DNA of 64,000 nucleotides from Watersipora subatra (Eukaryota > Bryozoa > Gymnolaemata > Cheilostomatida > Watersiporidae). The stretch covers positions 24,894,182 through 24,958,181 of the forward strand of contig NC_088711.1 in assembly GCF_963576615.1 (NCBI RefSeq), written 5' to 3'. Each line of letters opens with the position of its first letter. The stretch's first letter is position 1. The notes under the pieces were generated by a model, which saw nothing but the letters and a program-made list of their open reading frames with translations, searched no databases and was not told where the DNA came from. The position numbers and the translations under genes are program-made. Positions 3,501-54,639 of this stretch are shown here, piece by piece.

Positions 3501-6500
3501 GTGCACATGCTATTGGCAGTGGCCCTGGTTGAGCTTATTTCCTTGAGTGGTATCTGAATGATCACAGAAGAGTAATTGCCTTCCCTTTCTAAGTACAAAT
3601 GTTTTGCTAAATTTCAGGTTGCACGGTGGCTAAACAACATGGGACTGAGTCTTTACTCAGCAGAATGCCGAAGATGGAACCGCACGGGTAAACAACTCCT
3701 GGAGGCAAACCACCAGGAAGTAGACAAAGAACTTAGAATACATAATCCTCTGCACAGAAAGAAGTTACATCTGGCATTGGAAGGTTGGTTCTAGTGCAAG
3801 AGAAAATGGTTAATTTTTCTGGCTTTGGGTCGAGAGTTGTCTGTCACTGCGTTGCAATCAGTCTGTACATGCTACATTTAGCCTTGGCTCCAGAAATTGT
3901 AGTTTTCTATCTAACTATTGATGTTTAAGTGTCATATGTAAGTCTAAAATGTTTAAGTTTGCTTCCATCTCCAGGTTTGAGAGTCGTACTGTGGAAAACT
4001 GACACATTTACTCAAGTAGTTCTAATAATTTTCTGTATAAGCATAATTAGTAGCCAGTGCATGAGAAAGTTTAGCCAGTAGCATGTACTAAGAGTAGGCA
4101 CTGACAAAATGAAAATATCCAATTTGCTTTAAAGATCATGAAAAAAGTCATAAACTCATATCATTTTGGTGTAGGCTGGTAGTCGCGTCGTTTACAATTA
4201 GCTTTCAAATCTGTAGCGGAGAGAAGCGGCAGCAGAAAAGACAAGCTGCTTTACAATCTCCAAACTGATTGGGTGTCCAAATGGTTGGATGACATCGGAC
4301 TACCTCAGTACAAAGATCAGTTCTTTCAGGCACGAGTTGACTCTCGGATGCTCAACTATATTACTGTGGTATGTACTAGGCTACTTCCAGTTACTTACTA
4401 ACAGCAGTAAGTATCTCTTTTTATACTGATGATTTGTGACAAACACATCGCGTCACAAACACACCCCGTCACAAACGCACTGCCTCACAAACACACTGCA
4501 TCACAAACACACTGCATCACAAATGCATTGCGTCACAAACACACTGCATCACAAACACACTGCTTCACAAATGCATTGCGTCACAAACACACTGCGTCAC
4601 AAATGCATTGCGTCACAAACACACTGCGTCACAAATGCATTGCGTCACAAACACACTGCGTCACAAATGCATTGCATCACAAACACACTGCGTCACAAAC
4701 ACTGCGTCACAAACACACTGCGTCACAAACACACTGCGCCATTTAAATATTACAGCATGTTTGAGTTTTTAAACAAAATCTAGAAGTATGTATGTTTATG
4801 GATATTTCAGGTTCTACACTGTATTACATGAAATGTACTGTAATAAAAAGACAACTACAGAATAAAGATTTGTTATTTGCAGTTTCGTCTGTGCCATCCT
4901 TGTTATTTTACCCTTAGACTCCATTAAAATACATGTAATGCTTACAGGCCAATTAGGTAAATTGGGTTGAATGTATACATTGATAAGTTTTGTCTTTGAC
5001 AACTTTGGTTAAAGATGTTTGCTCCCAACTGTGTTGATGGAAGGCTACCAGATGTCTATTTGTAGCATACACGGAGGCTGGCCGGAAATTAACCAGCTTT
5101 TACCCTATAATTAGATAACATTCCAATGCTGTTATTCTGATAGGAGGACTTGCTCTACATGAAAATCACCAACGCTATCCATCATTCAAGTATCAGACGG
5201 GGTATCGAAGTCCTGCGCAAGCAAAATTTCAACTTGTCGGCATTAAAGAGACGTCCCGTCGCTGGCAGTACTAGCTCAGATACACAAACTAACTCAGCAT
5301 CTGTAGAGGACGTGATGCTATGGACCAACCACCGAGTGATGGAATGGCTGCGTTCTGTAGACCTCAGTGAATATGCAGCCAACCTTAGAGGCAGCGGTGT
5401 GCATGGAGCTCTCATTGTAAGTTCCTCATTTCCGAGCGAGTGCTGAGACATTTTATTCAAGTGTTAAACTTGATGAATTGAAAAAAAACTTTTTTTAGAG
5501 TGAATTATTTTATATTCATGCATTGGTTGGTCTTAATCAAATCTCCTTGCTGCTATTAAAAATATTTGGTTTTCAAGCTTACTGTGATATGAGTACAATT
5601 TGAAGGTATTGGAACCCAAATTCACGGTAGAGCACCTTGCCTCTATACTCAACATACCAGCTAGTAAAACTCTTTTGCGTCGACACCTTACCGCACACTT
5701 TATCAACCTCATCACCAAAGAGCTGCAAGACCAAAAGACTGAGGCGGAACATGGTCTCCGTCTTGAACTCAACACGAAAATCAAACCAAAGAAAAATATT
5801 TTCAAAAAAGGTAAAGTGCAAGTATTTTATACCGGCTGTTTCATTTTGTACCTTTGAAATGTTGAAAAGTTTCATATGTCATATGTTATGTTTCTTCATA
5901 TAAGCTAATGTGAGCCAGAACTGTGCGTTTGGTAGGAATGCATGAGCCAGCCCATTTAATAGATCCCATGGGAATTTAGATAAAGAAAGTGGCACATTTC
6001 ATGATAGCTATTGCCACTATTGCCTCGCAATTGCCTTGCCCTATTGCAATTTTCAGCTTGTATTGACACAAGTTCTATAGATATTAGGTGCAAATTGATT
6101 TTGTAAATATGGACAGACGACTCCTAAGCATTACTTTAAAATTCTTCGCGGTGTTTTTGATAATTTTCTTTATAGGCGAAATCAGTATCCAGCCTACCAT
6201 GAAGTTCAACCAGCACCATGTACTAAAAGTAGGCATTGATTAAATAAAAATATAATCCCTATTGATTAAAAAAAACAAAGTTGTTAGGAAAATCACGTTA
6301 GGGTGGTCGCATTCGTTATAGTTAATTTGCAATCTGTAGCGGAGAGAGCAGCAGTAAAAAAGACAAGTTGCTTAATTATGTAGGAGTAAATGATGCAGGA
6401 GATGTCTGCCTTTTCATGTCATTTACATTCATTGCTTTTCATTGTCTTAAAATCACAAATTTTTAGGCCGCATACCTACTACAGACTATCTCTGCCCTCT

Positions 6501-7220: not shown

Positions 7221-10200
7221 TTATCGTAAGCCAACATCTTCATAGGCGCTATAGTCTACATCACAGATGGAAGAGGGTTGGGTGGAAAAAGGGTGGGTGG
7301 AAGAGGGGTGGGTGGAAGAGGGGTGGGTAAACGGATGATCAACAGAACCCCTTCCATCAATATTTATTGAAGGAGCCAAGTTGAACTCTAGCATCGATTT
7401 GTTGAGTGCATAGCCTGCTGCATCTAGATGTCTGTGGATGCTTCCTGTAACAAGCCATATAGGTAACGTACAGTTGTTGAAAGAAAGTTAATTTCAGCTA
7501 GGTATAAGTATTGCATGCTATTAATAATAACAGCTATTAGTAGGCTGGTTGAGTGCGAGTGAATCAGTACGTATGATGTGAGATTAAATAATCCTTCAAG
7601 TTATATGGCTAAAAATTTCCTGTTTTTATTTGGGAGACCGAGTAATTGGTCAGCAACTTTACCTGCAAGCTGTTGGAGGCATATGACATGTTAGATACAT
7701 AGCTAACTTGTTTGTGATGTGCAAGCTATGTTTACGTGTGAACTCGTGGACTGATGGGTGTCTATGACAGGCAAGGTATATAGTAAGCTTGCTTGCAGCC
7801 TGCGGATGTCTGTGGCACGCAAGATGTATAGAAAATTTACCTGCAGCCTGCGAATGGCTATGGCACGCAAGGTGTATTGCAAATTTACCTGCAGCCTGCG
7901 GGTGTCTATGGTACGCAAGGTGTTTAGCAAATTTACCTGCAAGTCAGTGGATGTCTACACCAACCATGTCGCATAGTAAATTCACCTGCGAGCCAGTAGA
8001 TGTCTATGGCAAGCAAGGTGTATAGTAAATTTACCTGCGAGCCAGTGGATGTCTATGGCATGCAAGCTGCATATGAGGTATTCTATCTTTGCATTTCGGC
8101 CTAGAGTGAGTTTCCAATCCATAAGGCAGGTCCAGATGCGGTCAGGCGTATTTCGATATCTCTTCTTTAATTTGCCGATTTCCTCATCAAAGTCCTTGTC
8201 GGCATAGATCTGTTAATATTTATAAAGAATCATAATTTTTTTTAGACTAGTCAATGAGCTTATAAGAGGCCGGATCAGTAATTTGTTTGAGTCGGAAATT
8301 ACCAATTGTAAATTTATTGATCTTTGTTAAGTAAAATAATGCTTTTTATTGAGTAGATTAAAAATCACTTAGGAATGACCGTAGAGTGTGGCAGCAGTGA
8401 GAAGCACCTGAACGACCTGCTACCAGCTCGAGACCAACGATTTTCATTGCTAATCATAAATTTAATAAAGATAAGTACATAACAACACCAAATAGAAGCT
8501 CACACGAGAGAACAGACCGTATTTGATTGCTTATGACTGCACAATTAGAGAGATGATACATATATCTGGCGTATACACGTATATCTACATGTATATCTAC
8601 ACGTATATCTACATGTATAGCGAATGTAACGCATGTTACCAATATATTATATTAAAATTTTTTTACCCAAATGAAGTGGATATGAAAGACTTAGCGCACT
8701 TAACTGCACTTGACCATGCATATGATTATCTATTGTCTGCAGGTCACACACTCTGGACATACAAGTAGCCTACATTTACTATAATCGCCATAAATAATGT
8801 AGATTTACATAGCAAAACAACCCATAGCAAAATCAACACTCAGATATCAAAGGAGGCCAGCATTATCAATCTCACTGCATGCAGCCTGCACAATGAGTGT
8901 GACTTTTGAAAGTTCCCACAGAGATTAATGTAAACTAGTTGCAGAATCGTACATTGTTGTGAACAACTGAGATTTGAAAATGAGTGCTCTCGAATCCAGG
9001 TGTCTGTAGGAAATCTTAGCATAGGCTGTGTGAACCCATTAGAGTTTACAAAAAGAGAAAACACTAATTTTTTTTATTTTATATATGTGTAACACTATAA
9101 CACATCTGGCTGAGAAAGTTCGAAAAATTTAGAGAGCGGTGACCAATAGAAGTTTTATTCAAGTTTTACCTTTTACATTGAGTATGTAGGAATCTTATCA
9201 TTAGGCAGGTTAAAAAAGCAAGAATATGTGAGAATACATGTATGCGAGATTACCAAAAGATTGTGACGAGCCCACTAGTTATCAACTTTAGAGGGTATCC
9301 AAATCAACACCTATCCTAATAACCATAGATAGACAGATCATCTATCCTAATATAGATCTATCCTAATAAACATGTATCGTAATAAACATGTATCCTAATA
9401 AACATGTATCCTAATAAACATGTATCCTAATAAACAAGTATCCTAATAAATATCTATTCTAATAAACATGTAACTTAGTAAATATCTATCCTAACAAATA
9501 TCTATCCTAATAAACATCTATTGTAATAAACATCTATCTTCATATCCTAATATTATGTACACTTATAAGTCATATGGTGTTTTTCTAAATTTAATAATTC
9601 TCTCAAAATTTAATTTGGATTCTAAAGATAGAAAATGAGGTTTTGGACATTGTGTTGCATAAGCTATTAGACAAAAGACACAAAATATAATAATCAGCGT
9701 TCAAGCTTCAAAATAATAACAAATATAAAAATTATAAAATGGTTGTTAGTTATTAGCAGCAATCTCCTGCTGATACCAAACTGATAAATTAGCAGCAATC
9801 TCCTGCTGATACCAAACTGATAAATTAGCAGCAATCTCCTGCTGATACCAAACTGATAAATTAGCAGCAATCTCCTGCTGATACCAAACTGATAAATTAG
9901 CAGCAATCTCCTGCTGATACCAAACTGATAAATTAGCAGCAATCTCCTGCTGATACCAAACTGATAAATTAGCAGCAATCTCCTGCATGAACAGGTAGCT
10001 GTTTATCAGCCGTTAACGGAAAAGCACCTGCCTTTACTGAACTACTATTATGGATTAGGTTAGCATTAGGAACAAGTACCTGCATTTCCTTGGCTAGCTG
10101 TATCCACTTAGTAGGACCTATAAGATGTGCCACCATACTGAAAGATTGTCGTATCGCTGAAGTCTCCTCTAAAATACACAAAAATGATGGTAAGGGGCCT

Positions 10201-10631: not shown

Positions 10632-12420
10632 CTACTGCATTCTATTACTATATTTTACCTCGAATTATGTTGAGATAAAGTTAAGGAGAATGGTTTGTTG
10701 AACCCTTTATGTTTACAGTTTGTTTTATCATAGAATAATACAATGGTAACTGTTTACGTAAGCCAGATTCAATACATTGAGCATGATAAGTTCTGCGCGT
10801 GACAGGCAGCGGTCTTATTCTGTACTGTATATTCCTGCAGAACTGCTGGAAAACTATAAAATCAAGTTTGTGGCCTGTCATTGCAGCTCCAACTTGCTTA
10901 AGCAATTTTAAACCAGCAGCTTATCAGTGATGATGCACATCCTGTACCTAAATAATTCTAGAGGGTTCTATGTCTATAACATGAAATTTATATGACTTGG
11001 TTTCTCTTTAACTTATAGGAAATATTACTATAAACAGTGCTATATATTTAGTGTCCCAATAAGCTTATCTTATGCACTTACAAGTGGAGAATAAAATTGA
11101 CCTCCTTTGCATATTACCACAATCAAATACATACATATATACATATACACATATATATAAATGTGTATACATATATATATATAAATGTATATATTAAAGA
11201 CCTCTTGTTTCACTAATGTTGTGCAAGTCAACAAATGATTAAGTTAGAGTGAACTGTTCATTGTTAGTTATGAGCACAATACTGTATGTGCCCACTGTTA
11301 GCTGAGTACTGTATATGCCCACCACTAGCTATGAATACCGTATATGCCCACTGATAGATGTATGTACTGTATATGCTCACCACTAGCTATGAGTACTGTA
11401 TATGCCCACTGACAGCTGTATGTACTGTATATGCCCACTGATGGCTGTATGTACTGTATATACCCACGGCTAGCTATGAGTGCCATGTGTGCCCACTGCA
11501 GCTACAAGACCCAGTGCCACTAAACTACACTCTCAACCATTGATTAAAATGCAATTGTTTGAATCAGTAGAATCCTTCAACACACTCAGGCATACGCAGA
11601 CATGCATTTTAATAATAGAATATTCACCCCTGCTATGTAGTACAGTGAAATTCTTCGAAACAATAGTCATGAGCATATCTCAAGTTTGCTGCACACCTAC
11701 ATGTATATATCAACCGACGTAATGCTGACTATATTGCAGCTACTGCCATTTATTTCAGTATATATAGTACCCCTTCTTTCCTCAGAACAAGAACAGGAAA
11801 GAAACAGGCAAACCACACCTACCCTTTGTAGCCTGACCATCAGTGACTGGATCCCTGTTTGAACCCCGACAACAGAGAGTATTGCATAAAGTTGCACACA
11901 ACCTCTCTGACCTGACAGCTGAGATACACTTGAACCAGTGGTGGAAGATGATCATACATACTTGTATAGGGGTTTACAAGGGTTGAAACTAAATAGCTGA
12001 TACTGCCACAAAGCTTCTTCAAATAGACTTTACCTAATAAGCCGATAGCCCTACCATACTTGACTAGCAAAATGAAAAAGTATGATGACACGGTTCTATA
12101 TTGTACAGTTTCAAAAACATAAAAACATATGTAGGTTTTTAATAACATCGATACAAAGCTTTCTATAGTAGATGATAATTCAGGAAATATCATAAAATAA
12201 TAAAAAAGTCATAGTAAATCGAAAAATATATAAATATTACGGCTCACGTTTGAAAAGCCGCAAAACAATTGTAAAGTGGCAGCTCCCAAGAACTCTCCTG
12301 TCAAACTCTATAAAGCATCTCACTCGGGTAATCTAAGCTCTAAAGTTTTAACAGTCTTTACAGGGAATAATATAGAATAATATATAATAGAGAATAATAT
12401 ATACTCTTCAGTAAATACAA
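10632..12420. other. gap between the Death-domain and actin-like genes
   Basis: No firm gene is seen here. Open stretches on the minus strand at 10,690-10,905 and 11,825-11,965 (the latter Cys-rich, followed by a GTAGGT donor) could be upstream exons of the Death-domain gene, but their phases do not link cleanly to the exon at 10631. A TA/TG-rich run lies at 11,120-11,190. Confidence 0.4.
11279..11480 (+). repeat. ~30-bp degenerate minisatellite
   Basis: About seven imperfect units are centred on GTACTGTATATGCCCACTG followed by a variable TAGCTATGA-like half. Confidence 0.85.
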
Positions 12421-15400
12421 TCAGAATAGTTGCCGTTCTAAGACTACCGGACCATATTCCTCATAGTCTGCTTTAGTCCTGCAGAGGTTGGGGAACACGG
12501 ACAGAGAGGCCAACACCGAACCACCAATCCAGACCAAATAGGCTCCATCTCTAGCGACAACACGAAGCCTCCGCTTTCCAAACATGAGTTTTCTTATCTC
12601 GATGTCTAGCCGCTCAGCAAACCCTAAAATTCAATCAAATCTAACCTTATCAAATTATAGCAGGAATGACAGGATCATTTAAAAAGACAAGCCAAGTATT
12701 AGTCAATGTCACATCGCACAGCGTTTTCCACACACCATTATTATTATTATTGAGTATTTTATTTATAGGCTTTTACACTTGCATTATTTACTGAACCTGT
12801 TTTATGGGCTGCAACCAATATGGCTTCAGTCATATACAAACTGCTTCAAGTACTATTTAGATGATAGTAAGATAAAACAACTCCTCTTTTATACAAACTA
12901 GCAGTAAGCCCAGCAATTCCTGAAATTGCTTTCATTTTCACAATCAGAGAGCAGATGGATTTTCACAATCAGAACCGGCAGATGGATTTTCACAATCAGA
13001 GCCAGCAGATGGATTTTCAGACTAGTTCTCTAGGAACCAGACAAAGTTTTAAAATAAAGTATTTTTAGCGACCTGGCGGAGTATATGTGTGTGAAGTTTG
13101 GATGAAATTGGCCAAAAAAGAAACACAGCGTTTAATTGGACACACACACACACGCACGCACGCACGCACACACACGCATGCACACATGCAAAATGATAAA
13201 ATGGCATTTATTAATATGGAAACCATTATCTGTATTTACACAACACAATTATATTAAAAAAGAACGAAGCTCTTAACTGTGAAAGCACTGAAATTGACAA
13301 ATGTGGTAAAACTTTTGCATTTATCTTTTCAGAGATGATGTAATCAGCATTTTAACGTTATTACCAACTCGCCACTTTACAGACTAAAGCTTTAATTGTA
13401 GCAATAAGAAGTAATGAATGACATAAGAACCCTTATGTTTAGACATAAGTAATATCTATGCCAAAGAGGAATAGCGAGGCACTCATAATCTATGAGAATG
13501 CAATGAGAGAGGTGAACGACTCCTTGGCCACTGGCTATATTATACTCTGGTGCAGAAGCTGGCCAGTACCTACTGGTGCTACCTACTTCTCACTCACAGC
13601 CAGTCACCTCTATCTCGTGTCAATGCTGCCAATAACAAACAGCGAGACCAACTTCACACTCACAGCCAGTCAACTCTATCTCGTGTCAATGCTGCCAATA
13701 ACAAACAGCGAGACCTACTTCTCACTCACAGCCAGTCACCTCTATCTCGTGTCAATGCTGCCAATAACAAACAACGAGACCTACTTCACACTCACAGCCA
13801 GTCAACTCTATCTCGTGTCAATGCTGCCAATAACAAACAGCGAGACCTATTTCACACTCACAGCCAGTCACCTCTATCTCGTGTCAATGCTGCCAATAAC
13901 AAACAGCGAGCTATATAAGGTTTAGATAAGGTATAGTTGAGCTAAGGCGCTATCAGGAAATTACAGTTGAAAGCCCTATAATAAGGGGCAGTACTACGAA
14001 GCCAGAGATCCAGTTATAAGCTCACCTGGAAAGAGAGTACCGCCCCCGGACACGATGATGTTGACGGAAAGATCACGTCTCATGTCGATATCACAGTCTT
14101 GGAGACAAGCGGATACCATTTGATGTACACCTAGGACTGCCTCTCCGGCCTCTGGACCTGTAAAATGCACCAAACATATATATCAATTCATGCCTAGTAC
14201 AACTCCTCTATGCATTGGCAAATAAAGAGGAAGGATTGGAAGGAAGGCCATAATTTCTATCAGAGAACACAGCATTCAACTGCACTACTGTCTTTATGCG
14301 TTTATGTTCCTTATGAAAGGAATCTTAATGAATTGAGTTATCTTAAACTTATTAGCCAGGCTCATGCCCTTTGACCTTAAGTTACAAAACTTTATCACAG
14401 ACTACTGGTAACCTTTTTCCATCTTTTCCCATAAATTCATCTCTTTGGAAAGTAATACGTGTCCTCTCAAGTTGCGACCATTTGTTAAGGCATGTCACTC
14501 CTATCATGTCCACTCAAGTTGCGACCATTTGTTAAGGCATGTCACTCCTGTCGTGTCCACTCAAGTTGCGACCATTTGTTAAGGCATGTCACTCCTATCA
14601 TGTCCACTCAAGTTGCGACCATTTGTTAAGGCATGTCACTCCTATCATGTCCACTCAAGTTGCGGCCATTTGTTAAGGCATGTCACTCCTGTCGTGTCCA
14701 CTCAAGTTGCGACCATTTGTTAAGGCATGTCACTCCTATCGTGTCCACTCAAGTTGCGACCATTTGTTAAGGCATGTCACTCCTATGGTGTCCACTCAAG
14801 TTGCGACCATTTGTTAAGGCATGTCACTCCTATCGTGTCCACTCAAGTTGCGACCATTTGTTAAGGCGTGTCCACTCAAGTCGAGTGGAGTTGCAATGTT
14901 CCAAGTTGCATGTTACTCTTGCATTTTATCTGAATGCCCAGATGCTACGGTTTCTAATTGGTATATTATTTCACAGAGTGAATATGTCCACTCTACATGC
15001 GGGTGCATGGAGTATAGCACAACACAAAATAGTTGTGATGAAGCGCTCATGGTCAAGGTCATATACCTGAGTGACTAAAGTTTGGTTTCTTCAACCTGGT
15101 AAGCTATTCACTGCACACAGACCAGATTTCTGTTGATCTATGAAAGTCACTCACAGTAAAAAAACCTAAAAGAATGTTGTTATTGCAGATTGCAAGGTGC
15201 CAGTTTTAGTTTTCAAGGTGATATCTAATGAAAGGTCCAACTTCATCTCAAACTCATAATTATGCACCTCAGGCTCATCAACAAGTATAAATCCTTTCGA
15301 AGGGCTTAAATTCTGTGATACAATTAAACAGGGTTCTGTATAAAACTAAACATGTTTGCATGATGATTTCTACCAAAGCAGTGCTCATCATTTGAGGTGC

Positions 15401-18400
15401 TTCAGGGTTTCAAGTGAAGATGTAAAAAGCTTTATGTACAACTTCATATGGACTCTCTGCTTTTCATCATTTATTGTTCAAAAGTTTATAGAAGGAAATG
15501 ATCCACAGTTTCCCTTATTTCACACCTACTGGTGATATTTAGCCAATAAATCAAGTATACAATAACTTTCATCCAAGAAGTGATAACTCCATACAAACAA
15601 TCTCAGTAGTTGTATGATCTCAGGAAGTTAGTGACCAGACTTAATTTACCAATGCAAGATGTCGTGTCACATTGTTTTAGCACACTTTGTTTTAGCACAA
15701 ACAAGCATACCGTACAATGTTCAATTGAACGCCACCACTATTTGACCGCCACCTTGACAGATGGGTTAAAAATAGAGCGCCATGGCATTTAATAAGAGGT
15801 TTTATGGTATTCACGTAATGATATACAAATTGTACCCATACACATGCAAACAAATAAGCAAGCACGCAGATGAGTGCCGTTTGATAGGTCTATAAGGACA
15901 TGTCTAAACACTCCAACAAGTGCACCAAGACAACCGAGATGAAGGTGTACACCTTGTATAGCAGTACACTCATGTTAACATACCAACTGCAATCACACAC
16001 ATGATGCCAGCAATCGCTGTAGTCAAGTATGTTTCTAATAAGTACCTAATGGATAGACTTCTATGGAGGCTGCTAGAAAGAACTACTAACAATGTGACTA
16101 CTTTGATTTACTTACTGTGCAAAGCTGGCTGGAACATGCACTCTGGAACCCTGAACCTCTCGTTGCCTACTGTCACGACGGAACCATCCGGAAGCTCATA
16201 AGATTTCTCAGTAGATGAGGAGGTACTAGAGGCTATCATTTCCTGTTCAAAGTCTAAAGCTGTGTAACAGAGTTTTTCCTTCATGTCTCTCACTATTTCC
16301 ATCTCAGCTGAAAACACAACACGACTCTTTAAATATTTTAGACAGTTAATAATATATCATAATATTAACTGTATTTTAATATTAACTGTAACTAATATTA
16401 TTGTATTTTAAACTGTTGAACACATAGCATAACTCTATTGTATTTCTATTCATTTTCTCATTATTTCCATCTCAGCTGATTGCATGGTGTTACAGCATTA
16501 GTGAAAACGATATCGTTAGCTGTATTAAAATTAATTTTATTATAACAAATAGTCTGTAACTATAAGAAGCCTTTTAATGAACACTCTTGTATAAAAAGTG
16601 AAATCCCACAGCAATGTTGATGGGCAGGATCAGCTCAGTGCACATGCTACATCACATAAGAATGTTCCAGAACAACAAATAATAACAGAAGGACAGTTCA
16701 CAAAAAAGACGTGAAACTCACCTGTAGTAGAAAACGTAAATCCCTTAGATCTCAGCAGTGTGGAGAGATGAGTGGTTAAATCTCTACCTCCAAAGTCAAA
16801 CCTCTTAATAGCGTGTGGATCAGTATAACCTGTAACAACAAGTGGATCAGTACAACCTGTAGCAACAAGTGGATCAGTACAACCTGTAAAAACATGTGGA
16901 TCAGTAGAACCTGTAACAGCATGTATATTAGTATAACCTGTAACAACATGTAGATCAGTATAACCTGTAATAACATGTAGATCAGTATAACCTGTAACAG
17001 CATGTATATTAGTATAACCTGTAACAACGTGTATATCAGTATAACCTGTAACAATATTTATACCAGTATAACCTGTAACAATATGTATATCAGTATAACC
17101 TGTAACAGCATGTTGATCAGCATAACCTGTAACAATATGTATATCAGTATAACCTGTAACAACTTGTATATCAGTATAACCTGTAACAATATTTATACCA
17201 GTATAACCTGTAACAATATGTATATCAGTATAACCTGTAACAGCATGTTGATCAGCATAACCTGTAACAATATGTATATCAGTATAACCTGTAACAACAT
17301 GTATATCAGTATAACTTGTAACAATATGTATATCAGTATAACCTGTAACAATACGTATACCAGTATAACCTGTAACAAGATGTATACCAGTATAACCTGT
17401 AACAATATGTAGATCAGTATAACCTGTAACAATACGTATACCAGTATAACCTGTAACAACATGTGGATCAGTATAAATCTGTGGAGCCTACACATACCAA
17501 ACTAGCAGTATATATAGTGTATGGCACTCACTACACATACCAAACTAGCAGTATATATAGTGTATGGCACTCACTACACATACCAAACTAACAGTATATA
17601 TAGTGTATGGCACTCACTACACATACCAAACTAGCAGTATATATAGTGTATGGCGCTCACTACACATACCAAACTAGCAGTATATATAGTGTATGGCACT
17701 CACAACACATACCAAACTAGCAGTATATATAGTGTATGGGGCTCACTACACATACCAAACTAGCAGTGTATATAGTGTATGGCACTCACTACACATACCA
17801 AACTAGCAGTATATATAGTGTATGGCACTCACTGCACATACCAAACTAGCAGTATATATAGTGTATGGCACTCACTACACATACCAAACTAGCAGTATAT
17901 ATAGTGTATGGCACTCACTACACATGCCAAACTAGCAATATATATAGTGTATGGCACTCACAGAGAAGCTGTTAATAGATCAAACTTTAAATTCTAAAGT
18001 ATCATAGTTTCTTCTGCTGACTCTGCCTTATTGGATCACAGAATCTCTAAATCAGAAGTTATTAGAAACTCTTGAACAAACAACTAAAGGTCTATCAATA
18101 TAAAAAGATTGATTTATGACATACCTTCATAGATAGGTACAACCTGGCACACTCCATCACCGCATTCAAGGGACACAGCCGAGACCCTGCCAGCAGCATA
18201 CACAGCCAGCATACCCGGATTGGCTATAGCCATTCGGGGTACTTGGAATTTTTCAAACAACACCTCTGACATCTTCTCCCTGTTACACCTGGGGTTAAGT
18301 GACGGTTCGGTTATTAGGAGAGAGGCTTCTGAGGGAGAGACCTGCAGCTTTGAATTGTACAGATAGTTCCAAACTTCTTCCATCGCGCACCAGTCTCTGA

Positions 18401-18796
18401 CAATACCATGTTCCATAGGATATGCAAGGCTCAACATATGCCTCTGTGACTGAGCGTGATCTCCAATATACCGGTCAGCTGCTGCTTCAATGCCCTGAGT
18501 ACAACGCACAGTATCAGAGTATCTACGGTGTGTAGAAGTGGAGTGAGAATGAAACTTGTGTATTAAAAACTTCACAACCCTTCCCTCACGTTATAAAAGT
18601 TTGTTAGAAACTAAACGCAATTTTATTTTATAGTATACATTTCCTTGACACCCACCTCAGCCTGCTTCAGTGTCCTAGCATTGCCAACTACATTAGGAAA
18701 GAGAACAGTGGGGGCTTCCAAACCAGCCATGCCTGCCTTGATGTTTCTAGAGCCATTATCAAGAACGACATGGGGTTCTTCTGCATCTTCTAAGCT
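12421..18796 (-). CDS. divergent actin-like gene with actin exon plan
   Basis: Six exons on the minus strand: 18796-18656, 18494-18125, 16829-16722, 16307-16116, 14157-14026 and 12623-12421 (TGA). They total 1146 bases including the stop, the same length as the two actins at 38.5 and 45.5 kb, and the splice phases are identical, so this is an actin paralogue. The ATP-binding landmarks are recognisable: [21 protein letters not shown] and SGGGTLFPG. Residues central to actin ATP hydrolysis differ: the position of Gln137 is Pro (IANPGM versus AIQAVM), His161 is Gln, and Asp154 is Glu. The C-terminus is ERQLF instead of HRKCF. Most exons are only about half identical to actin, but the 16307-16116 exon is nearly identical to it. 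The first exon opens with AGC after a TTAG acceptor where actin has ATG, so the start codon must lie in an unrecognised upstream exon or be lost. It may be a specialised actin-related protein or a decaying gene with open frames. Confidence 0.85.
12937..13190 (+). repeat. 30-bp triplicate and CA/CG microsatellite
   Basis: Three copies of a roughly 30-bp unit (TTTTCACAATCAGAGCCAGC followed by AGATGGA) at 12,937-13,020 are followed at 13,140-13,190 by a CACA/CGCA dinucleotide tract. Both lie in the last intron of the actin-like gene. The linking text (GTTTGGATGAAATTGGCC before the CA tract) resembles a transposon 3' tail, but I cannot name the family. Confidence 0.75.
13578..13916 (+). repeat. 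66-bp minisatellite
   Basis: About five copies of a 66-bp unit contain CTCGTGTCAATGCTGCCAAT. They lie in the last intron of the actin-like gene. The period is a multiple of three, so the open frames here are artefacts. Confidence 0.95.
14466..14884 (+). repeat. 47-bp minisatellite
   Basis: Nine copies of a 47-bp unit beginning CTCAAGTTGCGACCATTTGT recur at 14466, 14513, 14560 and so on. They lie in the intron between the 16307-16116 and 14157-14026 exons of the actin-like gene. Copies differ at only a few sites. Confidence 0.95.
16120..16450 (-). other. gene-conversion tract from a true actin gene
   Basis: The exon at 16307-16116 differs from actin B exon 46293-46102 at about 11 of 192 positions by eye, five of them in the last five bases. 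The identity continues into the upstream intron (CTCTTTAAATATTTTAGACA) and, more patchily, to TAGCATAACTCTATTGTA near 16,440. The other exons of the gene are strongly diverged from actin. This pattern is expected of gene conversion or exon replacement limited to this stretch. Confidence 0.8.
16813..17476 (-). repeat. 27-bp minisatellite of repeated splice acceptors
   Basis: About 24 units of 27 bp begin inside the exon starting at 16829. On the minus strand each unit carries GTTACAG|GTTATACTGAT, which is the acceptor and first codons (GYTD) of that exon. The unit is nine codons, and in the exon's frame it reads G-Y-T-D-I-H-I-V-T-like peptides without stops in the units examined. The innermost acceptor gives an exon of exactly 108 bases, as in the two actin copies, and is therefore the presumed functional one. 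Confidence 0.92.
17491..17965 (+). repeat. 43-bp minisatellite
   Basis: About 11 highly similar copies of a 43-bp unit contain CACATACCAAACTAGCAGTA. The array follows directly on the 27-bp array, in the same intron of the actin-like gene. Confidence 0.95.
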
Positions 18797-21100
18797 CTAA
18801 CAAACGAAAGCAAATAGGAAGGCAGCTCCCGTGGCCATCATCATGGTTCATTATGTGAAGGAAGATTGAATCAATACAATGTGGAGTGAAAAACCTGCTA
18901 CCCTGTTTGAAAAGCGCTTAATAAGCAGTTTTCTAAGTGATTTGGCAGTCCCATAATGCATATGACAAAAGTTTGCGGGCGTTAACATCACATCATTTGT
19001 TAAACTGACACTGTCAATGTTGATTTGAAAATGCTCGTCCCGGCTAGTGAACCAATAGCAAACTATAGTTATTTATGAGCCCTTGCACATTTATTGGTGG
19101 TACAACTTTATTCGAATTTATTCTCGCTTTAAACAAATTACTTATTAAAAATACATTTACTAAATTATCAGTTCCATTTATTTTGATTTGAAATTAAATT
19201 ATTCTACTATAGCTAGCTATTGCCATTCTGGAATAGTAATAGCTATTCCAGACTGTATTTTACTAGCTGACCACAAAGAATCTTTTACTGCAAATCGTTA
19301 GTGAATCATATACAAACTTGCAATGTAATTTTCTTTAGGTTTCACACTTTTATATGTTAAATATATAAATAAATATAAAAGTAATATGGCTAAATATGTT
19401 AACCATCTTCTAGAGCGAGTAGCCCTAGTGCATAAAAATCCAAAATAATGACGAGCTAAAAGCAATGGCCTTGCCCTTTCTAAACTTCCTACCATGACTC
19501 TCTCGCAACTATCAGCTCTAAGTGGCCAGTACCAGTCCTCTCATATCCCCTGGTCAGCACCGATTGTGTAACAGTAGAGAATGGCAGTAAGCAACCTCCA
19601 TGCACTAATACTTTTATCAGACAGTTATAAACCTACAAGAGGTTGAAAAGTGCCACTAACCTCTGTTGTAAATACTCATGCCTGCCCACAATGCAGTGCA
19701 TTTATTATCATTGCACATTAGATCTTTAAACATGCCTTTGTGCTGAAAATTACATGTGCTATTGCAGTTTGACGCAAGCTCAAGTATATCATAGAGTAGA
19801 TGGCTAATACCATACATATGACTGTATGATACGAGTCAAATTAACGTTTTGAGTGATAGAGTGTGTGAGTCTTGTGGGAATATGACTCCGTAAATATCTG
19901 CCCAAAATAGTCTGTATGACAGATTATTAAAACAACCTTCCCCAAAACATATACATGTATAATTAAAAAATGGTTAAGCAGGGTATTGACAAAATACCTC
20001 AGGTGGCACTTTCAGTACAATCAATGAGAGTGCAAATGGTAATTTATCTTTTCTTAACGTCTTAAGTTTTGCTAGAACTCAAATGGCCTATATTGTTGTT
20101 TCAATTTTGCGATCAATGGGTCTCACAAAACAAAAATTCCCAATGAATTGATAAATAGGCAGAAAAAGGGAAACTTATTGACTTTTCATAAGATCATAAT
20201 CACATTGTTTTGAACAAAAAAATAGGCAACATAATTAGAAAAAAATTGAGTTGACCTGAGAGAGCTGATGTCAGAACCAAATATGCCAGCAGTGACAGTG
20301 ATATGAAATGAGAACAAATGGAAATGAAAGATGAAATGGTGAACAATGCCATTGCCGATCAAACCCAACCATCTGTGGCAGAGGCGTATACCACGGTTGA
20401 TGATACCACACAAACGATACACTACTACTACAGATGATGTTCCCCATACCTACATTGATCCTGACAACATCATGAAATTTGAACAAAAACCCTAATTGCA
20501 CATGCAGCAACAACCTGATGAATCTATCTTGTCCCATATCAAACTACAACACTCACTTACCACTCAAGTACTGAGCATACAAGATGACCAAATAACTGAT
20601 AAATCACTTTGATACAGTAACTTTGTTACACTAATTAACAAAAATCGCATCATACATTCACTATTTTGATTTTCTATTTCATTAAAGGGAGATGTTCATG
20701 AATGATACAATGGAACCATTGAAAACTATTCTCTAACATGTAACTTCCTATTAATTACAAACCAGGTTAATTACATGCACAAATGATCAGACAAGTCTTT
20801 GAAATTGACACACTTGCTGAAAGACGCAAGAAAACGAGACACACCCTCCTACTGCGTATTCCATCTAACGAAAAAAAACACACTGCACTGTCAAATTCAT
20901 ATGATGATCTGATACAAGGCCGATTGACATCCATGGTTTCCACCAGAGCTATGGTCAATAGAAAACCACATACAATATACACCAAGAAATCTGCCTACCA
21001 CAACAGCTGCTTAGCACAAACCGTTGGAGAACTTAAATCAGAGATCTTTTAACCCCGCACATAATCCATAAACTAACATTTCTAACACACTGCCCCTAAC
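18797..21100. other. 5' flank of the actin-like gene and unassigned sequence
   Basis: No certain exon or promoter box was found upstream of 18796. Between about 20,270 and 21,050 there are open or nearly open stretches, including a basic one at 20,783-21,050 with ERRKKTRHTLLLRIPS. These look like a worn fragment of a mobile-element ORF1-type protein, but no family can be named. Confidence 0.35.
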
Positions 21101-21289: not shown

Positions 21290-22883
21290 TGGTGTCAGAA
21301 GTGAACTACTAGAAGCCTAGTTGGCGAATTTGTAGGAATTCGTGGTATATTTAAGATACGAATCATAATCAGAAAGTTTGTAGGAACTTCTGTTGTTAAC
21401 ATTGGTACATTGTATTGAGTTGCTACTGTTTCTGCTGAGGTGCTTAGTAGCGAATTTGTAAGAACTCAATTATAACAAGTTTTTAGGAACTCTGGTACAA
21501 ATAAATCATATTGATTGGGGTTGTGCAAGAAATTGACATGACTGAAAGTAGAGAAGATCGTTTTGTGCAGAGATTAAATTTTAAAGGTGAAAATTTAGTA
21601 CTCAATTGGAAAGTTTTTAAAGCTCAATTTGAAATATTGAAAATTGATAAAAAATATTCAGAAATAGAGCCTGATCAACAGATTGCCAATTTGCTACTCT
21701 TAATGGGATATGATAGTGTGCCGATATATAATCAAATTCACCTTTCATGCTATGGAAGAAGGAAGAACCAAGACATTAGATAATGTAATAGCCATATTTG
21801 ATCGGCATTTTGAACAGGTAAAATTTTTTATTTTTGAACGAGTTAAGTTTAACAATATCAAGCAAGGAACTCAGTCTATCCATCAGTTTATTACACAAAT
21901 ACAGTCACAAGCAGACAACTGCGACTATGGAACAATTCGTGATGAAATGGTGAAGGATAGGATAGTTGTAGGAGTTGCTGACGATAAAATTAGGGAATAT
22001 TTAATAGATGTAGAGGACTTAGACCTGAATAAATGCATAACCAAAGCTAAACAGTATGTAAGCCACCATGCTCAGGCATCAAAGATGACAAGTCAGGAGC
22101 TGGGTATGAAAAATTTGGATACAGTCAAACAGTCCCAAAGCTTAGATTCTGTTAGACAATATAGGACAGGATATCAAGCTAGGTCAAATGATGATTATCG
22201 TCAGGATAGATTTAGTAGTCAGAGAAGACAAGGACAAAATAATGGTAAAGAAAGTCACACTTGGCCATGCCAAATAATGGCCAAGTGTGACTTTAGCAAT
22301 AAACCAGCTCATCCAAAAGATAGATATCCGGCCCGGAATTTGTTACATGTGCAAAGGTCGTGGACATTGGGCAAGGGCTAAGGTCTGTAAAGTAGGCTAC
22401 AAAAATAGAGCTGAGGACGTTGAGTGTGATGAACTAGAAGGTCTATTTTTGGGCGACTCCGAAGGACTAGATGGAGTGTCTGAATCACTAACTGAAACGT
22501 CAAAAGCTTGGTTAGCAGATATTAAGGTAAATACCTAAAAAATTAAATTTAAAATAGATACTGTAGCAGCAGTAACAGCTATTCTATCAGAATTTAAAAA
22601 GTTGTGAGCAATACAAGACACTCGAATAAAAGATTGAGAGGAGCAATAAACCATGAATTGGTTGTTATTGGTCAGGCAGTTGTAAAGTTGTCTACTGGAA
22701 GTAGACAAGTTGAGAAAACTGTGTACTTTGTAGACAATCTATGTAGTTTCGCCATTGTCGGGAAAGCCAGCAATAGCAACGTTAGGTTGATAGTTTGTAG
22801 GAACTGTAGAAAAAGCGAAAGGAAGTGATTGGAAAAAGGAGTATTCTAAACTGTTTGTAGGGTTAGGATCATTAGACACTAAA

Positions 22884-24931
22884 GTGAAAATATTAATAAA
22901 TGAAAAGATTGACCCATTCGTACCAAGGGTCCCTCGAAGGGTCGCAGCAGCGCAAAAAAAACCATTGAAAGAAGAACTGCGAAGAATGGAACGACTTAAA
23001 GTAATTGAGAAAATTGAAGAGCCAACAGAATGGTGCGCCCCTTGCATCACAGTGCCCAAAAAAAATAGAAAGCTTTGTGTCTGTATATACTTCACTAACC
23101 TTAACAGAGCAGTAAGAACAGAATACCACCCACTTCCAACTTCAGAGGAGACACTGGCAGAGCTAGGAAACTCCAAAGTGATCAGTAAATGAGGTGCCTA
23201 TTGTGGCTATTGGCAGTTGGAATTACACCCTGAATCACAGAAGATGACAACATTTATTACACCGTTTGGCAGAATCTTTTGTAAAAGATTGCCGTTTGGA
23301 ATAAGTTCCGTCCCAGAAACATTCCAAAGAGAAATGCAGGAGGTGTTAATGGGTCTTGAAGGAGTTATTTGTCAAATGGATGACATCTTGGTTCATTGCT
23401 CATCGAAAGAAGAACATGGTACGAGACTGAGAAAAGTACTCGATAGGTTGGAAAAAGCAGACATTACACTTAATTCAAATATGTGAGTTTGAAGTGAACA
23501 AAACTAAATTTATAGGCCACATAATTGACGAAAAGGGAATAAGAACTGATGCGGAAAAAACCAAAGCCGTGACAAATTTTCCGAAGCCATCCAATACAAC
23601 AGAATTAAAATGTTTTTTTGGAACGGTCAACTACTTGGGAAAATTTACTTCGCTATTAGCAGATAGGACTCATCATTAACATCAGCTATTAGGCAAAGCC
23701 TGTAATTGGGTGTGGAGAGAACTACAAAATAAACAGTTTAAAAATGTCAAAGAGATTTTAACAAATACCCCAGTATTGGTTCTGTACTCTGTCTGCTGAC
23801 ACAATGATCAGCGCTGACTCGTCGTCCTCTGGATTGGGTGCAGCTGTATTACAAAAGATCGAGGAAGAGTGGAGACCTGTAGCTTATGCTTCGAGGACCC
23901 TCACTTCGGCAGAAAAACACCATGCACAAATACAAAAGGAAGCCTTGGCTATAGCCTGGGCATGCGACAAGTTCAACTACTATGTGACAGGAAAGATTTT
24001 GCAATAGAAACTGATCACAAGCCACTACTAGCAGTACAAGGTAACAAGGAACTGGCCAAGCTACCAGTTAAAGTGCAACGTTTCCGACTACGAATGATGG
24101 CATATAGGTACTCGATCACATATACACCTGGTAAAAAGTTAGTGCTGACTGATGCGTTGTCAAAGGGTCTAGTGGAAGAGATAGGAAAAGACGTAGACGA
24201 GTTGAAGGACTCAAAGATGGTATTTGAAATGATAGCAGCAATCCCAATTGCTACGAACATTAAACAGAATCAACGCAATACTACTAGAAGATGAATTAGT
24301 AGTGCTGTTACGTAAATAAATCGCAGATGGATGGCCGGACTTGAAGAGATTGCCGGAAGTAGCTGAACAGTGTTACACGTTTAGGGATTTTCTGACATAC
24401 ATTGATGGTATGGTTCTAGACAACAATCGTGTATTTATTCCATTGCTGGAAAAGCAGAAAGTGTTAGAAGATATACATAAAGGACATCAAAGAGAAACAA
24501 AAAGCATCCAAAGAGCAACAGAGATAGTCTGGTGACCGGGTATGACAGCAGAAATTAGAACAATGGTTGAGAATTGTGACAAATGCGAACAGTTTCGGTT
24601 GAAACCAAGGGAACCATTGGTAACTACTTCGATACCAGAGAGACCCTGGTGGAGATTGGCAATGGATATATTTGAAAAAAATGAAAAATAATATCTGTTG
24701 CTGATAGATTATTTTAGGAAATTTGTTACAGTGCATGAGTTGAAGGACTCGTCCAGCTCATCTGTAGTCATAAGGATTCTGGAAGAACTATTTTATACCA
24801 TAGGGATTCCAAACACCATGGTCAGTGACAATGGTCCACAGTTTGTTTCGAGAAGAATAAAATTTTATTTTCAGAAAATGGGACATCGAACACATTACGA
24901 GTGCGTCAAGTTATCCCTGAAGCAATGGTGA
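22884..24931 (+). pseudogene. pol region of gypsy element 1
   Basis: Remains of reverse transcriptase (PFGISSVPETFQ, QMDDILVH), RNase H (ALAIAWACDKF, ETDHKPLLAVQ) and integrase (TMVSDNGPQF) are recognisable in Ty3/gypsy order. The region is broken in several places. Confidence 0.88.
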
Positions 24932-26029
24932 AGCCGAAAGGGCAGTAGGAACAGTAAAAGGACTGATGAACAAGTTGCAAGCAGCGTTGTGTGTGTATAG
25001 GGACACACTATTGTCATAAGGTTATTCACCAGCACAATTATTGTTCAACAGATCGATGAATTCGATGGGCATTATGCCCGAAGGGAGAATTGACTTGAAA
25101 AAGCTGAAGGATAAAGAGGCACAAATTCGAGCCAAAAGAAGCTCATGGTATAACAAACGATACGCGACAAAACCAAGATCAGATTTAACTATAAATCAGC
25201 CAGTTATTGTAAAAATCTAGGAGGTCAGAGTGTTCCAACTCGAGTAGTTGCTACTAGAGGAAGGAAAATAGTAGCTAGAAGTTCTAATGATATACTTTTT
25301 AGGAAGAATCGGGCTCTTGTAGTAGGAAGAGGTGAAGTGAATACGGAGTCAGAAGAAGTGCAGGCTTCTCCAGAACTGACCAGAGAAAGGGGACAGACAG
25401 CAGCAGGATGCCCTAAAGAGTCAAGGCCAGTACATGAAGAACATACAAAAAGGGGACAGGAGGATGATAGAGAAATTACTCAGGAGACAACGAGTACATA
25501 TACTAGTGAGAGCAGGCGGGAGAATGAGTTACCAACAGGAAACAGTCCGGTAAATAGATGCACATCAAGACAACAGAGTCTAATTCTTCAGAGACAACAA
25601 GCTCCACAAGAAAGGGAGGAACCACAACAACAGACACAGTCATCACCTAGAAAAAGAAGATCTACTAAATGACAGAGCGACCCCAAACCAGTGTACATCA
25701 CAAAATCAGAAAGGCAATTGAAACCTCCAAAGAAGTTTGATTTATAATTATCTGATTTCCTTGGTTTATCTTGATAGTTTCTCAGGTTTTTTTTTAATGT
25801 TGTTTTAAATGCATTGTTATATAACTGATATAATTTGTTGTAAACATGAAAACTTTTGTTCTGCGAAACTGCATTGTGAGGGAGTTGGAGGACTCCTCGT
25901 TTGAGACTATATCAATACCCGTCTGACGTGGAGTGAGGCGTTACAATATATAACATCAGACTTTGGAAGGTTTTGCAATTCTATTATCTATGTTCATGTA
26001 AAGCCTGTAAGGTTTAGTAGGATTAATTA

Positions 26030-29965: not shown

Positions 29966-30178
29966 GTGCACAAAAACACGGTACAAAAGTATAACCTGTG
30001 CAGTTGAAAATACAGATTGATGCTGTTGTCATAAAACACCTCCGGCATACTTGGCAACTGACTCACGTGCTCGTATCTCAAACATGGCTCGTATGTTAGT
30101 GCTAAACTTGCTTAAAAGCTGGCTCGTATCTCAAGTTTCCCGTACGTTGGAGCACTCGAAAGTTGAAGTATTACTGTA

Positions 30179-31135
30179 CCTCCCTCTCTTTAGTGTTGGT
30201 AGATGTTGAGTTGTCTATCACTGGTTCTGATGTTGTTGTTTCAGGAGTGCTGAGTACTTTTGGTTCAGACTTTGTTGGATGAGTGACTTTTCTAATATCC
30301 ACTCTGTTCCTACGAACAGGAGCTCCTCTCTCTGGTTGCACCATATAAGATCGTTCATCCAGACGTTGTGTGACTTGAGCACGTCGCCAAACTTTCTGAC
30401 CCAAGGTCACTGGTCCAAGTCGAACTACATCCCCATCCTGCAGAGGTTTTAGTTCCTTTGTGTGCTGGTCATACACAGCCTTGTCTACAGATTGTTTTTG
30501 TTCAAGTGCAGATTTTACACTATCAGTATTTGGATTTGATGGGCTTAGTAATGATGCAGTAGTTGGCAACCTTGTCCTGCAACGACGACCAAAAATTCGC
30601 TGAGCTGGACTGTAATCAAGCCCTTCTTGAGGTGTGTTTCTATGGGCTAGTAGCGCTAAATAGGCATCAGTCCCATCTTCGTTAGCTTTAGTTATTAGTC
30701 TTTTTGCTGTCTTGACTGCTGATTCCGCCTTGCCATCCCCCTGTTGATGATGTGGACTTGAGGTTTGATGTCTAATGTCATACTTTTGAGTGAACTTTTC
30801 AATTAATTCTGATGTAAATTAGGGCCATGGTCAGTTATAACAGTTTCAGTAAGACCATATCGAGCCATGTGTCTTTTCAATTTCTTTACTATAGTTCTAG
30901 CGTCTTTTGACTCAACTCTATCTACTTCAATAAAGTTGCTCTAGTGGTCAACAGTGATCATATACTCTTTTTCACCACATGTGAAGAGATCACTAGACAC
31001 AATCTGCCATGGACGATCTGGTAGGTCTGTCCTCATCATTGGTTCGTTCTGTTGTCTTGCACTATATCTTTGACAAATGTCACATTGGGCTATAAAGTCT
31101 TCAATTTCAGCGTCATTCCAGGCCAGTAGAGACAC
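30179..31135 (-). pseudogene. integrase portion of gypsy element 3
   Basis: The zinc-binding end (FIAQCDICQRYSARQQNEP), parts of the integrase core and a C-terminal tail are recognisable in order. This part of the element is broken. Confidence 0.8.
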
Positions 31136-33183
31136 TCTCTAGCTCTTCTCAACATGGCCTTGACCCCTTGATGGGATGAGTGTAGTTCTTGTTTTACTTC
31201 AGCTCTCAGTGAGCTGGGAATCACAATTCTCTCCCCTCTGTAGGCAAGTCCATCATGCACAGCCATTTCATCTCTCATGCTATGAAATGGTTTTGCTAGC
31301 ATGTTTATTCTCTCTTTCTCTTCTGGCCACCCCTTCGCTATAACTTTCATAACAGCTTGTAGAATCGGACAGTTTGCAGTTTCCATTTTTAGATCTTTTT
31401 TCCATGGACAAGCTATTGTTTCAGTTAAGGCTTGAACAGTTTTTGTGAGACAGTTTATTGTTTCATTCTCCCTTGCACTGTCTGCTGGATCATTCAGGTG
31501 ACATCCGTGTCTACTAAGCATGTCTGCAATATGTTGCTGCGCTCCTGGGTGGTATGTTACAGTAACATCATACTGCTGAAGCCGCATACGTAGACCTTGC
31601 AGTCTTTTAGGGACATCTCTAAGAGGTTTGAGCATGATTCTTTGTAGACATCTGTGGTCTGAAAGTACAGTTGTGTGCCTGCCATATGTGTATTGATGAT
31701 ACCTTTCAATTGCCCACACAATGGCAAGAAGTTCTTTCTCGATGATAGCGTACCGGGTCTCTGCATCTCGAAGAGCTCTACTGCTAAACTCAAGAGGTTG
31801 ATCATCCTGTAGTAAGGTTGCTCCTATAGCCTTGTCACTAGCATCACACTGCACAGTCAACTCTTTCTTTGGATCATAGTATTTTAGCATCACTGGCTCA
31901 GCTGCTACTAGTGCTTTGGCTTCCAAACAGGCCTCACTTTGAGCTTTGGTCCAGTTCCAAATTCCCTTATTGTTTGCCTCTCGCAGACGAACTGCAATCT
32001 CTGCTAGGTTGGTGAGGAACTTGGATAGATATTGAAGGAAACCAAGGAAACTTTTCAGTTCCTTTTCATTTTGAGGTTCTTTCATTTCTGCCACACTCTT
32101 GATTTTCATGGGATCATGCAGGAACCCTTTGTCTGTTACTATGTGGCCTAGACATTTGATCGATTTCTGACATAACTGTACTTTGTCTGCGTTTAGCTTA
32201 ATTCCTAGATCCCCACAGCTCTCAAGAAGCAATCTCATTCTTGCATCATGATTTATGCGCGCTTCTACATCGTCTGAGCCGCAGCCTATCACTACGATGT
32301 CATCAGCTACGCAGACTACACCATCTACACCTTGCAGTGCACGATGAAGTTGTTTCTGAAATATCTCAGAAGAGACTTTCAGACCAAATGGCAGACGTAG
32401 CCATTTATAACGACCAAAAGGTGTGTTCATGCATGTCAGTAGAGATGATTCTTCGTCAAGATTCACATGCCAGTATCCAGCCTTCAAGTCTACTACAGAG
32501 AACAGTCGAGCATTTTTGAACTGTGGAAGTACATCCTCCAAGGTGGGCATAAGGTAAGATTCCCTCTGCAACGCTTCATTTAATCTCTGTGGGTCTATGC
32601 ATATCCTCAGCTTGCCATTAGGCTTCTTTACCACTACCATGTTGCTTTCCCAAGGAGTAGGTGTATCCACAGCCTCAATGACCCTTTTCTTCACCATAGC
32701 ATCTAGCTCAGCTTCAACCTCTGTGTGTATAGCATGTGGCACGTGGCGCACTGGTGAGGCATGTGGTCTGACTTCTGCCACTTTCAAGTGCTGAACACCA
32801 GGTAGAGAACCTAACTTGTCGTCGAAAGCACCTGGAAATTCTTTCAAGATGTCAATCTGACCGCTCGTATTCATAGCATTGATATTTCCCTGGTTAATGG
32901 TTATCATGCCCATTGCCACAGAAGCTCTTAAGCCTAAAATGAGTGATCGTTCTTTGTCTACAATATGAAACGTCACTTTGTACTTTTTGTTGTTTTTGGG
33001 ATTACGAACCATTATCCTAGCGGTACCCAAGACTGTCTGCACATCGTTGGTCCATGAAGTTAGTATTGTTTTGTCTGCTGTGATTGGTACCCCCTGTGGT
33101 AACATATCCCGCCTCAAGATATTGGCAGTCGAGCCACTGTCTACCTGAAACTTGGCCTCTGCGCCTGAGTTTATGAAAACCAA
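31090..33183 (-). CDS. pol of gypsy element 3 (protease, RT, RNase H, start of integrase)
   Basis: A 697-codon open frame. Aspartic protease motif FQVDSGSTANIL lies at the N-terminus. Reverse transcriptase (KKPNGKLRICIDPQRLN, FSVVDLKAGYWHV, TPFGRYKWLRLPFGL, VCVADDIVV) is followed by RNase H (LTVQCDASDKAIGATLLQ, ELLAIVWAIERYHQY) and an integrase zinc-finger start (HSSHQGVKAML). The order is that of Ty3/gypsy elements related to K02A2.6-like polyproteins. Confidence 0.92.
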   Translation of the reverse strand: MVFINSGAEAKFQVDSGSTANILRRDMLPQGVPITADKTILTSWTNDVQTVLGTARIMVRNPKNNKKYKVTFHIVDKERSLILGLRASVAMGMITINQGNINAMNTSGQIDILKEFPGAFDDKLGSLPGVQHLKVAEVRPHASPVRHVPHAIHTEVEAELDAMVKKRVIEAVDTPTPWESNMVVVKKPNGKLRICIDPQRLNEALQRESYLMPTLEDVLPQFKNARLFSVVDLKAGYWHVNLDEESSLLTCMNTPFGRYKWLRLPFGLKVSSEIFQKQLHRALQGVDGVVCVADDIVVIGCGSDDVEARINHDARMRLLLESCGDLGIKLNADKVQLCQKSIKCLGHIVTDKGFLHDPMKIKSVAEMKEPQNEKELKSFLGFLQYLSKFLTNLAEIAVRLREANNKGIWNWTKAQSEACLEAKALVAAEPVMLKYYDPKKELTVQCDASDKAIGATLLQDDQPLEFSSRALRDAETRYAIIEKELLAIVWAIERYHQYTYGRHTTVLSDHRCLQRIMLKPLRDVPKRLQGLRMRLQQYDVTVTYHPGAQQHIADMLSRHGCHLNDPADSARENETINCLTKTVQALTETIACPWKKDLKMETANCPILQAVMKVIAKGWPEEKERINMLAKPFHSMRDEMAVHDGLAYRGERIVIPSSLRAEVKQELHSSHQGVKAMLRRARECLYWPGMTLKLKTL

Positions 33184-33244
33184 GCGTGCGAAAACCTTTT
33201 GAGAGCTGCTTTTTGTTGTGATCTGGTCTATTGATTCATGATCA

Positions 33245-34021: not shown

Positions 34022-34164
34022 AGCTTAGTATAAGTCTTTTAGATCTTCTGTGACTAGATCTTTTATTTATTTATTTTCATTAGCTTAAATTAGCATCGTA
34101 CTCGTTTGCATCAGGATATTGGTAGTATATTCAGTGGGCTATTACCAGTTCACTTCAGACACCA

Positions 34165-38504: not shown

Positions 38505-40769
<2,265 letters not shown>

Positions 40770-54572: not shown

Positions 54573-54639
54573 TAGAGTCTGAAGATAATGATGACAAATT
54601 TTATGTTTTTTCTGTAAACGAGAATGAGTGGCGTAAGTC

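Follow-up and report, generated by a model that had tools for sequence, protein, structure and literature searches.

In amphioxus, tandem repeats named mirages run across exon-intron boundaries, as excerpts from two reports describe for Adh3 and for the globin genes BflGb6 and BflGb9, and the same excerpts compare PGBD5 and TnC with these mirages (PMC3087553, PMC3902484). The array of BflGb6 lies on the acceptor side, and according to the excerpted text AG or GT is present in many, but not all, mirage units (PMC3087553). RT-PCR by the authors, together with the Adh3 data, suggests, in the same excerpts, that regular splicing continues (PMC3087553; also PMC3902484). Minisatellites at such boundaries are described, again in an excerpt, for recent paralogs among human segmentally duplicated genes, where they either remain part of the exon or are removed by splicing (PMC2812944). 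Prawn lectins (Rlecs) carry coding repeats of 30 or 33 bp in variable number, and alternative acceptors occur in the family, according to the portion of the source consulted (PMC7536079).

Here we analyzed a window of 64,000 nucleotides, the whole stretch of DNA under study, in which a divergent actin-like gene (gene A) carries 24 units of 27 bp next to its exon 3. In-frame choice between adjacent acceptors is familiar from NAGNAG and other tandem acceptors. Unlike NAGNAG, with two sites at a spacing of 3 nt, the array of gene A comprises 23 sites at a spacing of 27 nt. The human interferon-induced gene 6-16 (G1P3/IFI6) is said to contain a minisatellite that provides its transcript with multiple splice donors. 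The array of gene A likewise multiplies splice sites, but these are acceptors here and donors there, and the 6-16 case comes from a transcript whereas that of gene A is read in DNA.

As in the amphioxus mirages, the unit of the gene A array spans the exon-intron boundary, the array adjoining exon 3, and a splice signal is present in many, but not all, units (AG in 23 of 24). By contrast, the excerpts give BflGb6 as 3-6 units of 150-160 bp, compared with 24 units of 27 bp here. The gene A unit also differs from the mirages in that it equals nine codons, with all units in one open frame. A minisatellite at an exon-intron boundary is a feature shared with the internal repeats of human segmental duplications, which average 30 bp and four copies and for which the excerpted text, unlike the present case, describes no acceptor array (PMC2812944). 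The alternative acceptors of the Rlecs drop 11 or 58 bp of exon and, in contrast to the gene A units, are not said to be repeats in the excerpt (PMC7536079). Titles and abstract openings from mostly non-subscription literature yielded no acceptor array combined with peptide insertion, which is no proof of absence. Most likely, gene A holds a real in-frame mirage-type array with the status of a passenger, and a regulated or leaky insertion of nonapeptides from it is possible. Silence of the array, with one acceptor in use, would match the amphioxus precedent as excerpted (PMC3087553).

Gene A and its two paralogs

The Pfam Actin domain was matched in all three minus-strand frames of positions 11001-20999 (E 7.6e-34, 2.2e-14 and 3.1e-31), and the reading frame of exon 2 matched PDB actins with a best E of 3.3e-38. 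This domain and an exon layout common to paralogs B and C place gene A in the actin family. The presence of an actin cluster with common introns, and of a liprin-beta-like gene, suggests that the window is animal DNA. Six minus-strand exons of gene A, with introns bounded by GT and AG, together form a single open frame of 381 aa. Exon 1 (18656-18796) lacks a start codon at its beginning, and a further upstream exon is therefore expected. Exon 2 (18125-18494) ends CTATGAAG|GTATGT, so that the donor proposed at 18125 by an earlier, sequence-only reading of this DNA is found where an exon ends and GT follows. Exon 3 (16722-16829), the first full codon of which is placed at residue 169 in alignment with 375-aa actins, is followed in the joined exon model by exon 4 (16116-16307), exon 5 (14026-14157) and exon 6 (12421-12623), which carries the stop codon. 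Intron 2-3 (16830-18124, 1295 nt, minus strand) holds the 27-bp array and a second array of 43 bp.

Paralog B (38505-40769) and paralog C (exons 2-6, 45463-47885), both on the minus strand, have the exon layout of gene A. Their homologous introns are phase 1, at the same codon as intron 2-3 of gene A, are 121 nt long in each, and have no array.

Identity between gene A and paralog C is 94% in exon 4, and 52-63% in exons 2, 3, 5 and 6. A segment of 229 nt (16121-16349), including about 42 nt of the preceding intron, is 96.5% identical to paralog C, and this likeness looks like gene conversion. Exon 4 of paralog B (region 38911-39330) measures 193 nt, compared with 192 in genes A and C, and its joined frame runs into stops; paralog B may be a pseudogene.

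Structure, splice signals and reading frame of the 27-bp array

TRF reports a tandem array at 16819-17476 with a period of 27, 24.4 copies, 87% matches and a score of 938. In the register of exon 3, it comprises 24 full units at 16830-17477 (minus strand), in which TTACAG|GTT is exact 22 times. The exon 3 acceptor, just before 16829, is the end point of the 24 units, and the first approximately 18 nt of exon 3 (16812-16829) are an innermost, partial unit copy. The sequence-only reading, which had described a 27-bp minisatellite of about 24 copies at an exon edge of the actin-like gene, beginning within the coding exon, is borne out in both respects. It had also placed TTACAG|GTTATACTGAT in every unit, and in this it went too far: the exact 17-mer occurs only 11 times on the minus strand, although the shorter TTACAG|GTT does recur as stated above and AG stands at the end of 23 of the 24 units. 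The sole exception is unit 19 (17316-17342, minus strand), which ends in AA. Exact minus-strand counts are 18 for TTACAGGTTATACT and 22 for TTACAGGTT, the latter having a single plus-strand occurrence in the whole window. CTGAT or CTAAT, with its A 17 nt upstream of the G of AG, is found in 19 of the 24 units; it is branch-point-like, and in our reading may serve as a branch point.

Units 9-12 are identical to units 14-17, a five-unit block having been duplicated inside the array, and the mean identity between units peaks at lag 5 (0.899; lags 1-11 compared). Unequal exchange would be expected to leave such a block repeat. Relative to the consensus, units 1-3 and 24 carry 4, 5, 4 and 3 differences, respectively, and they retain the CCAC of the exon, which varies in interior units. 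An exclusion of the edge units from interior homogenization is only suggested by this pattern, because interior units 9, 11, 14, 16, 20 and 23 also carry 3-4 differences from the consensus.

A local weight matrix for scoring was built on 16 acceptors in the three actin genes (A, B and C), several of them near-identical between B and C, with the exon 3 acceptor of gene A (A3) excluded and the presumed acceptor before the start codon of B included. On this scale the innermost acceptor scores 6.68 and is eighth among the 73 intronic AGs. The highest score of a unit acceptor is 8.25, and all but units 19, 20 and 23 (21 of 24) exceed the weakest real acceptor (1.27); the outermost unit has an AG of its own (5.89) and a CTGAT. 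Just beyond the array, at 17478, CCACAG|AT scores 5.32, within the range of the real acceptors. In our reading this site would be out of phase, meet a stop at once and break the frame, so that safety of the frame would not extend to the whole intron. The innermost acceptor is thus not distinguished by sequence alone, and DNA cannot tell which acceptor serves; because the innermost one does not have the best matrix score, the view that it is the one mainly used is an assumption taken from precedent.

All 24 units can be read through in one frame (ORF 16630-17487, 285 aa), in agreement with the earlier description of the unit as nine codons without interruption of the exon's frame, and no stop interrupts any unit in this frame. 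The units offer the same phase-1 junction as the exon 3 acceptor. In 23 units, splicing at the AG would restore the same G|GT codon, which corresponds to actin Gly168 because the first full codon of exon 3 aligns with residue 169. Each upstream unit acceptor would therefore add in-frame nonapeptides at residue 168, inside the W-loop of actin, which spans residues 165-172 according to the excerpted source (PMC9010300). However, the open frame is less telling than it may seem, because stops arise in just 2 of the 81 possible one-base substitutions in the consensus unit (the probability of none in 21 distinct changes is 0.59) and because, for a given frame, 43% of shuffled 27-mers have no stop. 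Two of the array's other five frames hold just 2 and 3 stops. By our arithmetic, the prior for an open frame together with a 3n period is approximately 0.14 (43% times a 1-in-3 chance). The openness of the frame is weak evidence for a function of the peptide and close to the chance expectation. Structure prediction from the single sequence of the repeat peptide gave a mean pLDDT of 44.8, with no confident fold, and a Pfam search found nothing above curated cut-offs, the weak matches being taken as chance.

Among the 21 distinct changes between units, 20 replace an amino acid and one is synonymous (P 0.0035 compared with random changes having the same number of transitions), and two fall at third positions (P 0.0038). 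The distribution over codon positions, 9/10/2, gives a chi-square of approximately 5.4 with 2 d.f. (p approximately 0.07, our arithmetic, with no phase named in advance). The shortage of synonymous changes may point to selection on a peptide that is expressed. The excess of replacements could reflect diversifying selection, but the codon positions differ only weakly when none is singled out in advance, and the units of a tandem array do not vary independently of one another. Purifying selection on the repeat peptide is rejected, with just 1 of the 21 changes synonymous. In the window's other 27-bp array (36689-37075), changes by codon position number 7, 7 and 4.

Origin of the array and competing explanations

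The first 11 bases of exon 3 are matched by the units at 10-11 positions. The likeness proposed in the sequence-only reading over these 11 bases therefore holds, but it seems to extend further, to about base 18. Over exon bases 12-18, units 3 and 24 match at 6 of 7 positions and the remaining 22 units at 2-5; over bases 19-27, all 24 match at 3-5 of 9 positions. Units 3 and 24 accordingly match 16 of 18 exon bases and then 4 of 9. Because of this drop after base 18, the copied segment is best read as approximately 18 nt of exon joined to 9 nt of intron end.

We lean, with somewhat better than even confidence, toward a mirage-type minisatellite that arose by duplication of the splice junction and is mostly an intronic passenger with one main acceptor. 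In one divergent actin paralog, a stretch of 27 bp across the 3' splice junction of exon 3 (approximately 9 nt of intron and 18 nt of exon) would have been duplicated in tandem, and unequal exchange or slippage would then have raised it to 24 copies. Today one main acceptor, probably the innermost, would be joined to exon 2. Mis-splicing to another unit would presumably be tolerated, because the units share one phase and hold no stop; such an error would add nonapeptides to the W-loop and would not truncate the protein. The demonstrated part of this explanation comprises the anatomy of the array, the likeness of the units to the exon edge, the internal block duplication and the array-less paralogs. 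Several findings weigh against it. The innermost acceptor ranks only eighth among the AGs of the intron, albeit by a matrix from just 16 acceptors, and most unit acceptors exceed the weakest real one. The site at 17478 also scores 5.32 and would, as we read it, break the frame. Synonymous changes are fewer than expected, exon bases 12-18 are poorly matched in 22 units, and mirages are described in lancelets.

The same features may be read in favor of a working array, a possibility that the sequence-only reading had raised side by side with the silent one. If alternative acceptors were chosen, transcripts would carry 0 to 23 extra nonapeptides after residue 168, with the exception of 18, which is excluded because unit 19 lacks AG. 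The near-universal AG in one phase and one open frame, the branch-point-like motif of most units, the scarcity of synonymous and third-position changes and an insertion point inside the W-loop (residues 165-172 in the excerpt of PMC9010300) all agree with such choice, but the openness of the frame is near chance level, the codon positions differ weakly, and the repeat peptide has neither a confident fold nor a family above cut-off; we regard this explanation as unlikely. A bolder form, in which the number of 27-bp units and the choice among them set the nonapeptide count in the W-loop and intron length polymorphism is turned into protein-length diversity, we hold to be distinctly unlikely. If it were true, selection for a diverse inserted peptide would account for the small number of synonymous changes. 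The array might instead be wholly coding, the outermost usable acceptor being used constitutively, which would lengthen exon 3 by 621 nt and the protein by 23 nonapeptides. That unit is transcribed first and combines its own AG with CTGAT and an open frame. However, 207 residues would be placed into an actin loop, unit variation is nearly all amino-acid replacing, and the lancelet precedents, as excerpted, seem to retain normal splicing (PMC3087553, PMC3902484), and we consider constitutive use very improbable.

The extent of the copied segment bears on a different origin, in which the whole unit is a duplicated nine-codon exon segment (GYTDPHAIK), the AG of the unit arose within this segment, and the original acceptor stands beyond the array, perhaps at 17478. 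The unit peptide GYTDPHVVT does resemble that of the exon, bases 19-27 are matched at 5 of 9 positions in units 4, 6, 7, 11, 16 and 19, and the score of CCACAG|AT is that of a plausible acceptor. Against this stand the abrupt loss of likeness past base 18 in units 3 and 24 and the out-of-phase position of CCACAG|AT with its immediate stop, again in our reading, so that we judge an exon-segment origin quite improbable. A further explanation would be that gene A is unexpressed or decaying and the array without consequence. Gene A is divergent, it belongs to a set of duplicated actins, and paralog B has a frame break; the intact joining of its six exons into 381 codons of open frame, with proper intron ends, speaks against decay, which we find very doubtful.

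Should a single acceptor be used, the array would constitute a natural test of how the spliceosome chooses one 3' site when approximately 20 of nearly equal quality lie within 650 nt. Use of several acceptors would reveal a direct route from tandem-repeat expansion to in-frame protein variation. Under either reading, the three-paralog cluster presents the array-less state, with its intron of 121 nt, beside the expanded one, and the mirage phenomenon would be extended if the animal is not a lancelet.

Exon-edge controls and other features of the window

A near copy within 1 kb was found for 2 of the 31 actin exon edges, both of them in gene A (the acceptors of exons 3 and 4, A3 and A4), and for none of the 8 liprin-beta exon edges, which were read by eye. 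Among 400 random positions, 5.5% score as high as A3 and 6.8% as high as A4. With sampling every 10 nt, near copies within 1 kb were found at 200 of 638 positions in the span of gene A and at 29 of 230 in the liprin stretch; paralogs B and C had none at 227 and 243 positions, respectively. An enrichment of arrays at exon edges is therefore rejected, the 2 of 11 edges of gene A being no excess over 200 of 638 of its positions. Gene A is rich in minisatellites, one of which overlaps an exon edge, and a duplicated splice edge is not special here. That near copies are common across gene A weakens the idea of a function.

Two further candidates were discarded. The acceptor core (columns 22-27 and 1-3) holds 3 of the 21 distinct changes where 7 are expected (binomial approximately 0.05, our arithmetic), but this apparent conservation was picked post hoc and is too weak to rely on. 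An RNA structure of the array is rejected, since all 20 dinucleotide shuffles fold better than the array itself (z 2.89). Rfam gave no match at gathering scores over the window, an exact search of viral_contigs with one unit pattern was negative, and no relative of the exon 2 protein was found in a prokaryote genome collection.

Gene A contains a second duplicated splice junction, in a single copy: the acceptor edge of exon 4 (-4 to +20) recurs at 16456-16479 (minus strand; score 43), approximately 170 nt upstream of exon 4, and its frame would, by our reading, meet a stop within approximately 30 nt. In intron 2-3, the 43-bp array (17488-17961, minus strand, 11 copies) lies upstream of the 27-bp array. 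Of its 11 units, 10 carry GGTATGT, which is also the sequence at the real donor, and 9 carry GTGAGT; within this one intron a series of donor-like sites thus precedes a series of acceptor-like sites.

Elsewhere in the window, the other 27-bp array (36689-37075, approximately 14 copies) lies downstream of paralog B; its likeness to the exon 3 array was equaled by 6 of 2000 single-base shuffles, for a pair chosen after looking. A 36-bp array at 9752-9986 (6.5 copies, 100% matches) is probably a very recent expansion. Liprin-beta-like SAM-domain exons occupy 3618-5810 on the plus strand, and a 16-bp array (4439-4738) lies approximately 70 nt past a donor read by eye. Long ORFs at 21505-25672, 30174-34024, 53700-58001 and 63110-64000 have, by eye, the look of Ty3/gypsy-type retroelements.
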